40,615 bases of DNA from Methanobacteriota archaeon. Lineage in GTDB: Archaea; Thermoplasmatota; Poseidoniia; Poseidoniales; Thalassarchaeaceae. This document shows positions 16,783 to 23,289 of the stretch, piece by piece (positions within the stretch are counted from its first letter, which is position 1; each line of letters opens with the position of its first letter). Below the pieces are notes generated by a model. It did no database searches and was not told the DNA's origin. It saw only the letters and a list, made by a program, of their open reading frames with translations. Location of the stretch: assembly GCA_002713585.1 (NCBI GenBank), contig PATD01000044.1:1-40615 (forward strand). The letters are read 5' to 3'. The translations under genes and the position numbers were made by a program.

Positions 16783-18630
16783 TCACTCTTCCTCTATGGA
16801 CCTGCCCTTATTTCTTGCGTCTTCAGCTTCAGCTTCAGCAATGCCTTTTTGGATATCTACACGTGTGAAAAGTGCAGTTCCAGCAAGGATGACTGCTACA
16901 ATTGTCAGGATCGCAACTCGGTCATCGGATACTGCCACGGTCATCGCATATACTAGGGGGCCGACAACGGCAGCCGCCTTTCCGATGAAACCAAAGAATC
17001 CAAAGAATTCCGTCGTCCTTGTCCTTGGAATTAGTAGAGAGAACAAACTTCGAGCCTGAGCACCCGCGGTACCCATAACCATGCCTACCATCATCCCTAG
17101 GAAGACGAACTGTAATGTGACCGTCATGCCCAGTGGACCCCATAGATTGTCCCGCATGAACATCGCCCAACCATCCAAGGGTCCATCCCCTAGATTGGCC
17201 GGATGATTATCTCCAACTGACTGTTTTCCATCCTCTGGACCACCAATGAATGAGAAGGAGAATCTGTGATCTGTGTTGTTCACCATTAGCATAGTCATCT
17301 GAGATGCATCCTCTTTTGTCAATGACGTTCGAGTATGATCTGTGTTTGATTCAGCACCGTCAATTGTTGTATCAGTAAGGTATGTGAAGTAAGTATCTCG
17401 GAATGATGCATCTCCTTCACCGTTTAGTGAAAACCAAGAGTTTGCAGTGCAGCAGGCCTCCTTATCGTATAACACAACAATCTCGTAGATGTCGTTATTA
17501 TCATCGAAATTGAACTGGAAATCGTGGACTTCGTGATTATCTTCCATCGGGAGAGGGGCGAAGCCAGTTGCAAGAACTGCAGCGACACAATAGACCATTA
17601 GAGCAGAAGTAAGGACTTTCTTAGTACCGAATCTCTCTGCGGCTCGACCTCCAATATATGACATTGGAATTGCAACAAGATTCACGGTTAGAAGGAGGAA
17701 CATCACCGCCGAAGGAGGTAAGCGTAGAACCGAATCACCGTATGCACTTGCCATTGCAGCGATAGTATTCACACCATCATAGAACAACAGATACGAAACC
17801 AAAAATATCGAAAGGACCGGGAACTTTCGAATCTCACGGAAGGTCGTCATGACCTGGTTTACTGCTACCTTGATTGCGTCACCAACACTATCGAACTCGG
17901 TTGGATTTGGGATTTCAGGCTCCGGAGTGTTACGGAATAGCGGCATTCCCCAACCAAACCACCAAAGTGCAGATGTAACGAATACAAAGGACATCTTCAT
18001 GTTGAGTGATACCGATTCTGGAAGTGGTCCAATCAAAACAAGAAGATGGACAATTAGGATGAGGCAACCCCCACCGAATCCGTATACATACCCAATCGAT
18101 GAAACTCGATCCATCGCTTCACGTGGAGCAAGATATGGCATGAAAGCGTAGTAAATCACATTCCCTCCCGCAAAACCGATATTTCCAATCACGATGAATA
18201 TCGCTAACCAAATATAGGCTGTATCGCCCATGAAAGGAGCTAACCCCATGAGAGCAGTGAAGACCACTCCCACGATTGTGTAAACCCACAGAATCTTCTT
18301 CTTGATAGGTACGCGATCTGCGATTACGCCTAGGATTGGACTACAAATTGCAATGAACAAACTGGAAGCCGTGAGAACGAGGGAATAGTAGGAAGCGCCT
18401 GTGATGTTTGCACCAAAGAACTCAGTTCCCCCACCCGTTGCAGTATTGAATAAACTCGCAGTCAGCATTGGTGCAACTACAGTCACTACGGTAAGGGCAA
18501 ACGCCTGATTCGCGAAATCATAGAGATACCACCCCTTGAGCGCCTTTTTCTCTTTAGGAGACATTTCATTGAGAATCGCAGAAACATCTACTCCTTCTAT
18601 CGATTCTGTTGACGAAACAACATCGGCCAT
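16783..18630 (-). CDS. MFS transporter, UMF1/Atg22-like, with large internal soluble insertion
   Basis: 'KGWYLYDFANQAFALTVVTVVAPMLTASLF' and 'GVIADRVPIKKKILW' are characteristic. About 130 polar residues interrupt the TM core. Confidence 0.83.
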   Translation of the reverse strand: MADVVSSTESIEGVDVSAILNEMSPKEKKALKGWYLYDFANQAFALTVVTVVAPMLTASLFNTATGGGTEFFGANITGASYYSLVLTASSLFIAICSPILGVIADRVPIKKKILWVYTIVGVVFTALMGLAPFMGDTAYIWLAIFIVIGNIGFAGGNVIYYAFMPYLAPREAMDRVSSIGYVYGFGGGCLILIVHLLVLIGPLPESVSLNMKMSFVFVTSALWWFGWGMPLFRNTPEPEIPNPTEFDSVGDAIKVAVNQVMTTFREIRKFPVLSIFLVSYLLFYDGVNTIAAMASAYGDSVLRLPPSAVMFLLLTVNLVAIPMSYIGGRAAERFGTKKVLTSALMVYCVAAVLATGFAPLPMEDNHEVHDFQFNFDDNNDIYEIVVLYDKEACCTANSWFSLNGEGDASFRDTYFTYLTDTTIDGAESNTDHTRTSLTKEDASQMTMLMVNNTDHRFSFSFIGGPEDGKQSVGDNHPANLGDGPLDGWAMFMRDNLWGPLGMTVTLQFVFLGMMVGMVMGTAGAQARSLFSLLIPRTRTTEFFGFFGFIGKAAAVVGPLVYAMTVAVSDDRVAILTIVAVILAGTALFTRVDIQKGIAEAEAEDARNKGRSIEEE

Positions 18631-18726: not shown

Positions 18727-19875
18727 ATGACTGGGGGGCTTCTTGGTACGGGTGACCGAGCGGTTAAGATTCATCATCTAGTGAAAGCACCGGAGAATAC
18801 ACCGGAATCAATCCGAATCCGTGAATCTTGGGATGCTTCTAGGCCGGCTACTGTCTATACCACTCCTGAACGACTTCCTGATGGAACTCCATGCACAGCC
18901 GCTACCGTCATTCTCCGAACTAGAGGTTGTGAATGGTGGTGGAAAAGTGGTTGCACTTTCTGTGGATATTTCAATGATGTACGAGATGATGTGACAAGTG
19001 AGGATTTGCATGCCCAATGGGAAGAAGCAAAACGACGCACAAATGACTTTGAAGATTGTAAAATGGTCAAGGTTTACACTTCTGGCACATTCTTTGAAGA
19101 TCGAGAAAATCCAGCTGATTGGCAGGAAGCCGTTCTTCGAGAAACCTACGAAAGGGGATTGCACCTGATTATTGAAGCTCAAGCACATCTCTGCAAAGAG
19201 GAAAAAATTCGATGGGTGGCCGAAAGACATCCAGGATGTACTATCGCAATAGGTTTGGAGGCCTACGATGATAATGTCCTCCGATTCCACTGCAACAAAG
19301 GATTCAACACCAAACAATGGCACCGTGCTGTGGATAACTTGCGCAAATACGGACTAAGGGTGAAGACATATCTCCTGTTCAAACCACCATTTATGAGCGA
19401 AGGGGATGCGATTGCTCAGACCGGAAAATGGATTCGGGCTGTTGCCCCTTTATCCGATGAAATCTCAATCAATCCGATGAACATCCAGAAGAAGACGATC
19501 GTGGATCGTATTCATCGTGCACGACAGTATCGGCCCCCTTGGCTCTGGAGTCTCATTCAACTCATCGAGGATGTGCATGAAGACGTTCAACCAGTTTCAG
19601 CAGAAAAGGCGGGCATGGGTACACGTGTCATTGTCCATCCTACTGCTGCCGGAATGATTCGAGGGTCACACAACTGTGGATCTTGTGATAGGGAAGCAGC
19701 AGCAGCTATTGAACGGTACAGTGTCTCTGCCGATTTACGTGAATTCGAAGGGATTGATTGCGAATGTCGTGCTCATTGGCGTACTGAAATAAAACTTGAC
19801 CAATCCCTTCCCACTCCAATGGGTATCGGACGAGACCGGAGAGCTCCTGTTACCGACATCCTTCGTGCACCGTAA
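18727..19875 (+). CDS. Radical SAM protein, archaeosine biosynthesis RaSEA (TIGR01210)-like
   Basis: 'TVILRTRGCEWWWKSGCTFCGYFNDV' (radical SAM cluster with WWW-SGCT-CGY signature) and C-terminal 'HNCGSCD...CECRAHW'. Confidence 0.78.
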   Translation: MTGGLLGTGDRAVKIHHLVKAPENTPESIRIRESWDASRPATVYTTPERLPDGTPCTAATVILRTRGCEWWWKSGCTFCGYFNDVRDDVTSEDLHAQWEEAKRRTNDFEDCKMVKVYTSGTFFEDRENPADWQEAVLRETYERGLHLIIEAQAHLCKEEKIRWVAERHPGCTIAIGLEAYDDNVLRFHCNKGFNTKQWHRAVDNLRKYGLRVKTYLLFKPPFMSEGDAIAQTGKWIRAVAPLSDEISINPMNIQKKTIVDRIHRARQYRPPWLWSLIQLIEDVHEDVQPVSAEKAGMGTRVIVHPTAAGMIRGSHNCGSCDREAAAAIERYSVSADLREFEGIDCECRAHWRTEIKLDQSLPTPMGIGRDRRAPVTDILRAP

Positions 19876-19983: not shown

Positions 19984-20262
19984 ATGGAAGACGACGGCGG
20001 ATATGGCCTGCTTGATTACATGCGCTCTGATGAGGAGCCTGAACTAGGAAGAACAGTAGTCGGTTTCGGAGCGATGGCTCTACTTCTTTTTCTGGTTCTC
20101 TACGAAGTACTATTCCCTGGACACGGTCTCCCAGTAATCAGTGATATTGTTCCCCTTGTGACAGGTGTGATGGACAGTGGCATCTGGTTTTTCATCCTTG
20201 GAATCATGCTAGGTTTCTTCTCTCTCTTGGCGAACATTTTGTTCAAGGCGGTACAGGACTGA
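19984..20262 (+). CDS. Small membrane protein with two predicted TM helices
   Basis: MEDDGGYGLLDYMRSDEEPELGRTVVGFGAMALLLFLVLYEVLFPGHG...WFFILGIMLGFFSLLANILFKAVQD. Start ATG 19984 preferred. Ends 9 nt before the next gene. Confidence 0.7.
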   Translation: MEDDGGYGLLDYMRSDEEPELGRTVVGFGAMALLLFLVLYEVLFPGHGLPVISDIVPLVTGVMDSGIWFFILGIMLGFFSLLANILFKAVQD

Positions 20263-20271
20263 GGTGATATA

Positions 20272-22005
20272 ATGGATACAATCATTCAGATGATGCTAAT
20301 CTTCTGGGGATTACTAATCCTCTTCGCATGGCTCCTACGCAACGGCATGGGATTCGTTGGCGATGCACTGGCAGGTATGACCGGTTTCATGCTTGGGAAG
20401 GCACTCGGCCCGGGTGCGACCTTACTCGAAGGACGATCAGGAAGTGCCTCCTCAAGTTGGATTCATCATGGACTCATCTGGCTCTTTGTCGGAGCTAGCA
20501 TTACATTCGTCGATCTCTGGCTTGGCCATTCTCCTAATGACCTCTACAGCCTCCAGTCATGGAGTTGGAATATTAGTGGAGACTCTGCTTTCGTTCCATC
20601 TGTATTCGCTACTTTTGCAGGTGGCATACACATGATCCTCATCGGTGCAGCACTCCACATTATCCCACGGATGGCAAATCATTCTCTCGCATCCGAAGGC
20701 AATGCTGGGCTAATGGCACTCGTAACCTCTCTAGGTGTATTCACCGCAATCATCGGCACACAGTTCGGTAACGATATCGGGAACCTCATTGCTTTCGGCG
20801 GAAATACACTCGTTGCATTCGCCGCACTAGCCATCATCGCGAATGTCCTACTCACCGTTAGAGAGCAAGAAGGGCGCATTGAAATTCCACAATGGTTCTT
20901 CCTTTTCGGCATGATTGGTTACTTTGCTGCACAGATTGGATTCATTGTGAGCGGACCAGGTAATGCATCAACCACTCTTTGGATGATGCTTTTCCTCCAA
21001 AATGGCATTTACTTCGGTGGTGCAGCCTTCGGACTAGTGTACTACGCAGTTCCTGCAAGTACTGGACAACCTCTACCAAGTCGTTCTTTAATCGGCTTGA
21101 CTCTGATTGGTACTATCCTTACAGTATCACCAAGCGGTTATGATCCAGCAATGCTTGGATTCGCTGAGATTGCCCTTGGTCCACTGGAGCACGGTGTAAC
21201 AGAGGGGCTAAGCCTCGCCGCATGTGGGACAGAAACATCCTGCACGGGGACTCTTGTCCTATCTGTCTTAATGGCGCTGGCAGTTCCAGTAGCTTTCATG
21301 TTTGCAGGGAACGTACTCGCCGCAATCCGCCGCAGTGGTGCCCTGTTTGAAGACACTGCTCTGACAATGATTGCATTCGGGGCACTCATGACGCCTATCT
21401 TTGCTGTTGCTTCGCTATTCACAACGTTGGACTCGATTTCAGGTTCTGGTGAGCTTGCAACTGCGATCTCCAGTGTCCGTCTAGGCTCGCAGTGGGGTGC
21501 TTACATCCCGCTCGTTCTAGGTGGTGTCCTTGCCATCTTACCTGACATTACGGGCCGTGAACTCGATAGCCAATCAGAAGGGCGACGAGCGACTTACTTC
21601 CTAGCTGTAGGTGCAATTGGCGCTTTTGTATTCTCCTTGGCAGCCGACTTCGCAAACATTTCCTTTGCCGAAGCGATGATTATCGCTGATTCTGAGATTG
21701 AAGGAGCTGTTAGCAGCACGGCAAGTGAGCTAATGCCAATCGCCTCGGTCCTATTCTATGGCGCTGTTATCGGTGTTTTGTTCATCACTCAGAATGTAAT
21801 CCGAAGTGGTAGTACGGGAGCACCCGCAGGCACATTCGAAGCTGAATTCGATATCCTCGGACCCCAGAACTATGTCCTAGCTGGCCCCACTACCGTACGT
21901 GACCTTCTGACCGCTGGTGTAACACTCGACACAATGATCTCTCCAGAGGATAGTGACGATGATGGTGATCACGTAGGCCCAACACACCTCTCCGAAGAGG
22001 AGTGA
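20272..22005 (+). CDS. Heme-copper oxidase subunit I-like integral membrane protein, apparently lacking metal ligands
   Basis: 577 aa polytopic. Three recurring HCO-I-like loop motifs: 'ALHIIPRMANHSLAS', 'YYAVPASTGQPLPSRSL', 'LAILPDITGRELDSQ'. Canonical His positions appear substituted. Confidence 0.6.
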   Translation: MDTIIQMMLIFWGLLILFAWLLRNGMGFVGDALAGMTGFMLGKALGPGATLLEGRSGSASSSWIHHGLIWLFVGASITFVDLWLGHSPNDLYSLQSWSWNISGDSAFVPSVFATFAGGIHMILIGAALHIIPRMANHSLASEGNAGLMALVTSLGVFTAIIGTQFGNDIGNLIAFGGNTLVAFAALAIIANVLLTVREQEGRIEIPQWFFLFGMIGYFAAQIGFIVSGPGNASTTLWMMLFLQNGIYFGGAAFGLVYYAVPASTGQPLPSRSLIGLTLIGTILTVSPSGYDPAMLGFAEIALGPLEHGVTEGLSLAACGTETSCTGTLVLSVLMALAVPVAFMFAGNVLAAIRRSGALFEDTALTMIAFGALMTPIFAVASLFTTLDSISGSGELATAISSVRLGSQWGAYIPLVLGGVLAILPDITGRELDSQSEGRRATYFLAVGAIGAFVFSLAADFANISFAEAMIIADSEIEGAVSSTASELMPIASVLFYGAVIGVLFITQNVIRSGSTGAPAGTFEAEFDILGPQNYVLAGPTTVRDLLTAGVTLDTMISPEDSDDDGDHVGPTHLSEEE

Positions 22006-22014
22006 ACGGAACCC

Positions 22015-23289
22015 ATGAAGATCGGTTTGGTCGGTAAACCAAATGTCGGGAAGTCGACCACGTTCGCAGCATTAACCGAGACTTCGGTTGAAATTGCAAA
22101 CTATCCCTTCACTACGATTGAAGCAAATGTCGGTGTTGCATGGCTACCACTGAGAGATGATTGTGCCTGCAAGGAGCTTGTCAACAAAGCCGAGGATGCT
22201 GGTCGCCCCCTCGAATCAGATGTATCACGAGAAGGAAGTGTCTGCACGCCTCGTTCAGGTTCATGCATTGGACATCGCCGCATTGTTCCCGTAACTCTTG
22301 TCGATGTAGCAGGCCTTGTTCCAGGAGCACATAGTGGACGTGGGAGAGGCAATCAATTCCTATCGGATCTCGCTAATTGTGACGCACTAATCCAGGTAGT
22401 GGATGCTTCAGGCACTACTGACCTCGAAGGAAATCCCTCCGGAGAAGGAGCCTGTGATCCACTTGAGGAACATGAATTCCTCATCGGTGAACTAGATGCA
22501 TGGATTGCCAACATTCTGACTACATCTTGGTCGAGAGGAGCGAGGAGAGCTCAAGCTGAAGGGCAAAACGCGCTAATCCGATATGTACATGATCAGTTGA
22601 GCGGGCTAGGAGCTACCGAGTCCATTGTGGTCCATACTCTAAACACCTTCACTTCGGATCATCCTAATCTCCCAGTCCCGTGGTCTTGGCCAGAAGATAC
22701 TGTGCGCAATCTTGCTTCGAAATTTCGAGAGGCCCTATTTCCGGTCCATATCGCTGCCAACAAGGCGGACCTCGCCGAACCCAAAACCTGGTTAGCACTC
22801 AAGGAAACTGTCGAGATTATGGGAGGTCTCATTCAAGCTACCTCGGCAGAAACGGAACTAGCACTTCGCCGAGCATCAAAGGCTGGTGCGATAGATTACA
22901 GACCAGGAGACAACTGTTTCTCAATCCGTGAAGACGCTGAAATCAATGATGCTCAGCGTAAGGGGATCGACGCTCTACAGAAGCGGATTGAGGTTCTCGG
23001 AGGAACTGGAGTTGTTGCCTTACTATCTGCCGTTGTCTTCAATCGGCTAGATCGTATCGTAGCGTATCCTGTACAAGACGAATCGAAGTGGCTTGATGGT
23101 GAAGGGCGCATACTTCCTGATGCTCTACTCGTAAAACGGGGTGCAACAGCAAAGCACCTTGCCTACGCAGTCCACACCGATCTCGGTGATGGTTTCATCC
23201 GCGCCACTGATGCGCGTACCGGTCGAGTCATTGGAGCTGATCACGAACTATCAGACAATGACGTAGTGAAAATTCACGCGAAGACGTAA
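22015..23289 (+). CDS. YchF-like Obg-family GTPase/ATPase with C-terminal TGS domain
   Basis: G1 'GKPNVGKST', G3 'VDVAGLVPGAHSGRGRGNQFL', 'AANKADL', and a C-terminal TGS-like region. Confidence 0.9.
   Translation: MKIGLVGKPNVGKSTTFAALTETSVEIANYPFTTIEANVGVAWLPLRDDCACKELVNKAEDAGRPLESDVSREGSVCTPRSGSCIGHRRIVPVTLVDVAGLVPGAHSGRGRGNQFLSDLANCDALIQVVDASGTTDLEGNPSGEGACDPLEEHEFLIGELDAWIANILTTSWSRGARRAQAEGQNALIRYVHDQLSGLGATESIVVHTLNTFTSDHPNLPVPWSWPEDTVRNLASKFREALFPVHIAANKADLAEPKTWLALKETVEIMGGLIQATSAETELALRRASKAGAIDYRPGDNCFSIREDAEINDAQRKGIDALQKRIEVLGGTGVVALLSAVVFNRLDRIVAYPVQDESKWLDGEGRILPDALLVKRGATAKHLAYAVHTDLGDGFIRATDARTGRVIGADHELSDNDVVKIHAKT

Follow-up and report, generated by a model that had tools for sequence, protein, structure and literature searches.

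A probably heme-free homologue of heme-copper oxidase subunit I retained across Marine Group II archaea

Subunit I of the heme-copper oxidases (HCOs) is normally defined by its histidines. To our knowledge, no other order-wide conserved family has kept the fold of this subunit and given up its heme ligands, and no heme-free HCO subunit I family was found by title or abstract in one open-access library, which does not in itself prove novelty. The family described here belongs to Marine Group II (Poseidoniales), the most abundant archaea of the surface ocean. The respiratory chains of this globally abundant marine group, which has no cultured isolates, have been described as containing complex I, complex II and a low-affinity cytochrome c oxidase (PMC6336850). 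Another archaeal lineage-specific family with distant homology to HCO subunit I, detected by HMM-HMM comparison, is the haloarchaeal fam02696, which PMC9258230 reports in Halobacteria beside respiratory genes.

The window analysed, that is, the whole stretch of 40,615 nucleotides from a member of the Thalassarchaeaceae (Poseidoniales; contig PATD01000044.1), contains the following genes of interest:

18727-19875 (+): RaSEA radical SAM protein (archaeosine biosynthesis), upstream neighbour (TIGR01210, 289 bits; synteny)
19984-20262 (+): 92-aa two-TM partner, upstream in essentially all loci, with a conserved ATG start at 19984
20272-22005 (+): putatively heme-free HCO subunit I homologue (open reading frame, AlphaFold2 model, Foldseek, hhalign)
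22015-23289 (+): YchF-related GTPase, downstream neighbour (NF007171, 447 bits; synteny)

The third gene, hereafter called pseudo-HCO, starts with ATG and encodes 577 amino acids with 12 core transmembrane (TM) helices preceded by one N-terminal TM helix. The protein matches no Pfam family and no significant NCBIfam family. Its AlphaFold2 model (pLDDT 79.6, pTM 0.83) was compared with the PDB using Foldseek: cbb3 subunit I was the top match (E = 7e-11, TM-score 0.73-0.76 by target length), followed by cNOR and then by ba3 and aa3, and HCOs made up all of the best 50 matches listed. The same model had no significant match in a viral structure library. At the profile level, the family alignment (50 loci) matched eight CcoN/NOR sequences in hhalign at 98.4% (E = 8e-15) over 425 collinear columns, with reversed controls at or below 0.4%, and the family HMM retrieved the ligand-bearing cbb3-type CcoN of Paracoccus and Sinorhizobium (E ~1e-19). 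A chance likeness between hydrophobic helices is ruled out by the reversed controls and by Foldseek. The preliminary description of this DNA, made from its letters, had proposed an HCO subunit I homologue; hhalign, the family HMM and Foldseek all bear this out, and no better non-HCO match stands among the best 50. The HCO-like loop motifs that it quoted are also present, each in the corresponding inter-helix loop. The conserved cytosolic segments are:

21040-21099 (+): TM VI-VII loop motif YYAVPASTGQPLPSRSLIGL, whose S270 is invariant in the family (alignment)
21538-21570 (+): TM X-XI loop LPDITGRELDS, also present in CcoN (alignment)
21895-21933 (+): conserved C-tail motif (V/I)RxLLxxGxxxDT, followed in Poseidoniaceae by an EF-hand pair that is absent here

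The gathering cut-off of Pfam COX1 (PF00115) is cleared by one distant family member (37.8 vs 34.8 bits), and the 577-aa protein itself has no match to this profile. In the tree, a long branch leads to the pseudo-HCO family, which forms a single clade with a support of 1.0, and it is C-type sequences that give the family its highest identity and profile scores. By fold and descent, the 577-aa protein is a member of the HCO superfamily. Its sequence relationships point to an origin in the C-type (cbb3) lineage, or in one close to it, rather than in the A-type oxidase of the host cell, and a recent duplication of the cell's own oxidase is ruled out by the strong C-type and negligible A-type profile matches.

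The metal-ligand positions were defined as the alignment columns occupied by histidine in all eight reference HCOs, and family counts were made over 111 members. They correspond to the following residues of the 577-aa protein:

20599-20601 (+): S110, in place of the low-spin heme b histidine of TM II (8/8 references, 0/111 family members)
20992-20994 (+): F241, in place of the Cu-B histidine of TM VI (8/8 references; histidine in 58/111 relatives)
21142-21147 (+): D291/P292, in place of the Cu-B histidine pair of TM VII (ungapped register, less certain)
21475-21483 (+): V402-L404, positions of the TM X histidine pair, V402 for heme b3 and L404 for heme b (8/8 references)

In functional HCOs, the low-spin heme is bound by histidines of TM II and TM X, the high-spin heme by a histidine of TM X and Cu-B (or FeB) by a histidine of TM VI and the TM VII pair; here these places are taken respectively by S110 and L404, by V402, and by F241, D291 and P292, the register of TM VII being less certain since hhalign places an indel there. 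Across the family, histidine is found in none of the 111 members at the V402 column and in three at the L404 column; on the ungapped register, it is absent from column 291 and occurs in 20 members at column 292. When a histidine within three residues of each ligand site, or any conserved histidine, cysteine or methionine, was sought, none was kept in all members, which rules out a displacement of the ligands to nearby positions. The alignment shows that the canonical ligation of both hemes has been lost across the family. The Cu-B site has decayed unevenly: some relatives retain one or two of its histidines, the complete three-histidine site is present in none of the 111, and the TM VI column is occupied by arginine, often with an acidic partner, in 29 members. 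The ligand sites had been mapped earlier to residues that are either correct or off by a few positions, and the accompanying claim that all ligands were lost holds for the 577-aa protein, in which all six positions lack histidine, but not for the family as a whole, more than half of which has the TM VI histidine. This last residue, accompanied in many of the 58 members by a histidine or aspartate in TM VII, could suggest that the family binds copper, zinc or iron through part of the Cu-B site, retained without the hemes. Yet no member has all three histidines, the present protein has a phenylalanine, and the arginine-acid combination rather resembles a polar pair, which makes a metal-binding function improbable.

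The pseudo-HCO is widely retained. Orthologues are present in 141 of the 146 Poseidoniales genomes, while a phylum-wide profile search gave no convincing match outside the order, and where relatives without ligands were sought beyond the order among plasmid proteins, the matches inspected were ligand-bearing cbb3-type proteins. Against two close relatives, dN/dS is about 0.05-0.08 (dN 0.03-0.06, dS 0.40-1.19), the same range as that of the adjoining YchF-like gene; the pseudo-HCO is under purifying selection. A pseudogene or a metagenome-assembly artefact is ruled out by these values, by synteny and by the presence of the gene in single-cell genomes. Virtually all of the ~130 loci whose contig extends far enough keep the gene order RaSEA, two-TM protein, pseudo-HCO, YchF-like GTPase, so that the pairing with a small two-TM protein gene noticed in this window is a fixed one. 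The partner is a helical hairpin of two TM helices with an invariant Glu-Pro ahead of TM1 (model pTM 0.34). The linkage of the RaSEA and YchF-like genes looks specific to the Poseidoniales, because the two genes lie on separate contigs in the outgroup genomes where both were found. Elsewhere in the window, an MFS/ATG22-like transporter (16783-18630, reverse strand) has a long polar stretch that separates its two matched halves.

The preliminary description had also suggested looking for a bona fide oxidase elsewhere in the genome. One is found on another contig, a canonical A-type cytochrome oxidase subunit I (PF00115, 462 bits), and canonical A-type COX1 occurs across the Poseidoniales. MGIII has an A-type oxidase and no pseudo-HCO gene, so that aerobic respiration does not generally require the latter. 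The presence of both proteins across the order could be explained if the pseudo-HCO were an assembly factor or chaperone of the true terminal oxidase or of another respiratory complex, a decoy subunit I that would hold partners during assembly. Nevertheless, this co-occurrence does not discriminate, as both genes are near-universal; the profile likeness is to C-type oxidases and not to the A-type enzyme that would be assembled, and there is no linkage to oxidase genes. Such a role seems unlikely.

Lysine and arginine are almost missing from the outer loops of the pseudo-HCO and present in its cytosolic loops, and this positive-inside pattern places the C-tail in the cytosol. With the membrane halves taken from the modelled helices, conservation in the family is higher in the inner half of the helices (2.38 vs 2.00 bits, p = 1e-7). 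The reverse is observed in the small set of reference HCOs: the heme-bearing outer half scores 2.67 bits and the inner half 2.39 (p = 4e-4). Conservation has shifted from the outer, redox-site half of the membrane to the cytosolic half. The invariant residues lie mostly at cytosolic ends and in cytosolic loops, the well-conserved TM I-II outer loop being an exception. The retention of the HCO fold could still accommodate a redox enzyme whose heme is held by non-canonical ligands. Yet there is no histidine, methionine or cysteine conserved family-wide that could serve, no CXXCH or Cu-A was seen in the conserved 92-aa partner, and conservation has left the very half where the redox site would be; we consider this reading highly improbable.

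In the sister family Poseidoniaceae (MGIIa), which makes up half of Marine Group II, the pseudo-HCOs bear an extra cytosolic EF-hand pair at the C-terminus. Two canonical DxDxDG Ca2+ loops are present in 31 of the 33 Poseidoniaceae members, and Pfam recognizes EF-hands in all seven of the members carrying the pair that were scanned. The Thalassarchaeaceae members, among them the 577-aa protein, lack it. When the module of one ATP synthase was searched in 136 genomes, the pseudo-HCO modules were 43-71% identical to the query. Of the strong hosts other than pseudo-HCOs, 44 were fetched and comprise 26 A-type ATP synthase subunits a, 16 NuoL and two NuoJ; this tally leaves out two more positions with strong scores, G076:C116 and G129:C29. 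Representative hosts are confirmed by Pfam, except that the NuoJ match is under the Pfam cut-off in a gene located between NuoI- and NuoK-like genes. The hosts track genus: the pair is inserted in ATP synthase subunit a in Poseidoniaceae genus g12 (L196, L197, L208-L231), in NuoL in genus g13 (L201, L232-L247 except L246), and it is found on NuoJ in the genus of the 577-aa protein, with a weaker NuoJ-like host in a fourth genus (L249). In the genome of the 577-aa protein itself, the EF-hand pair lies at the C-terminus of a NuoJ-like subunit encoded in the complex I gene cluster on contig C12 (L202:1402-2070, reverse strand). A congener (L246) also has a NuoJ-like protein with an EF-hand pair, its NuoJ being seemingly split into two open reading frames. 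In a tree of 93 modules, those of pseudo-HCO, ATP synthase, NuoL and NuoJ are intermixed and mostly apart from other EF-hand proteins of these genomes; one pseudo-HCO (L042) and two unrelated divergent sequences (L259, L261) are misplaced, an error that such short alignments allow.

Other C-terminal and EF-hand architectures were observed in the Poseidoniaceae. The predicted cytosolic C-termini of seven pseudo-HCOs (L034, L042, L044, L049, L051, L187 and L191) are SAP or SAP-like, with Pfam matches in L034 and L042 and similar tails in the other five; SAP is usually a nucleic-acid-binding fold. Proteins of about 600 amino acids have one or two EF-hand pairs in addition to a zinc-ribbon-like N-terminus (L248, L250, L251, L253-L255, L260, L262 and L263). 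By title or abstract, one open-access library showed no report of EF-hands in complex I or ATP synthase of archaea, which again is no proof of novelty. Calcium-binding lineage-specific families in these archaea are noted, without detail, in PMC9258230.

Several functions may be proposed for a protein with this distribution. One of them is a cofactor-free channel or transporter of ions or small molecules, in which the emptied heme cavity and the old proton pathways would conduct and which would be Ca2+-gated in Poseidoniaceae. The twelve-TM fold with its vacated internal cavity, the membership of a proton-pumping superfamily and the aspartate D387, conserved in the alignment towards the outer side of TM IX, are consistent with this proposal, and gating by a cytosolic EF-hand is commonplace. 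Nevertheless, the membrane core has no charged residue that is invariant in the family, the invariants being concentrated on the cytosolic side, and a channel would leave unexplained why the same module is found on ATP synthase and complex I. A channel is unlikely, though it ranks first among the alternatives, ahead of an assembly factor and then of a remnant metal site.

The suggestion that a cofactor-less oxidase fold was put to another role is well supported by the fold, the ligand loss, the purifying selection, the order-wide retention and the separate true oxidase, and the protein is very probably heme-free and not an oxidase. As to the role itself, the ion channel, assembly factor or structural paralogue named in the preliminary description are conjectural, and we tentatively lean, with slightly less than even confidence, towards a pseudoenzyme that would use its cytosolic side to scaffold or regulate the machinery of the proton-motive force, because of the conservation of the cytosolic half, the constant partner and the EF-hand module common with ATP synthase and complex I. 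The pseudo-HCO would have arisen from a C-type (cbb3-like) lineage and been present in the common ancestor of the Poseidoniales; it would not reduce oxygen, and may form with the small hairpin protein a membrane complex acting on complex I, ATP synthase and possibly also the true oxidase. Ca2+ bound to the EF-hand module might, in Poseidoniaceae, modulate or couple these complexes; in the species of the 577-aa protein, the module sits on complex I (NuoJ) instead. Yet several points speak against the scaffold role: a module in common is circumstantial evidence and no proof of contact; MGIII has an A-type oxidase but not this gene; RaSEA and the YchF-like GTPase are translation-related rather than respiratory and lend it no support; the Thalassarchaeaceae members have no EF-hand; and the conserved TM I-II outer loop means that the constraint is not solely cytosolic. 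A bolder version, in which the heme-free oxidase fold would be dedicated to organising the respiratory membrane and a Ca2+ module able to move between proteins (pseudo-HCO, ATP synthase, NuoL or NuoJ) would place oxidative phosphorylation under direct Ca2+ control, is rather doubtful. With the common module, the general mention of calcium-binding lineage-specific families in PMC9258230 gives way to a claim that can be tested, namely that Ca2+ would act on complex I and ATP synthase of these archaea. Whatever its function, a protein found in virtually every Marine Group II archaeon has so far had no Pfam or NCBIfam name.

Compared with known systems, the A-type oxidase subunit I of the same genome (PF00115) has only the superfamily in common with the pseudo-HCO: the direct profile match is negligible (3.6%), and the A-type protein retains its ligands and is encoded at another locus. 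NorB, the nitric oxide reductase subunit (PDB 4XYD, 3O0R), has the HCO fold and is the second-best structural match, but its profile match is weaker than that of CcoN and it retains its heme and FeB ligands. The subunit I of cbb3 oxidases (CcoN/FixN, C-family; PDB 3MK7, 8SMR) has in common with the pseudo-HCO the twelve-TM fold, the loop motifs and a collinear profile. It differs in having heme ligands and the cytochrome c subunits CcoO and CcoP, in whose stead the constant neighbours here are RaSEA, the two-TM protein and the YchF-like GTPase, whereas the pseudo-HCO has an extra N-terminal TM helix and its own two-TM partner.
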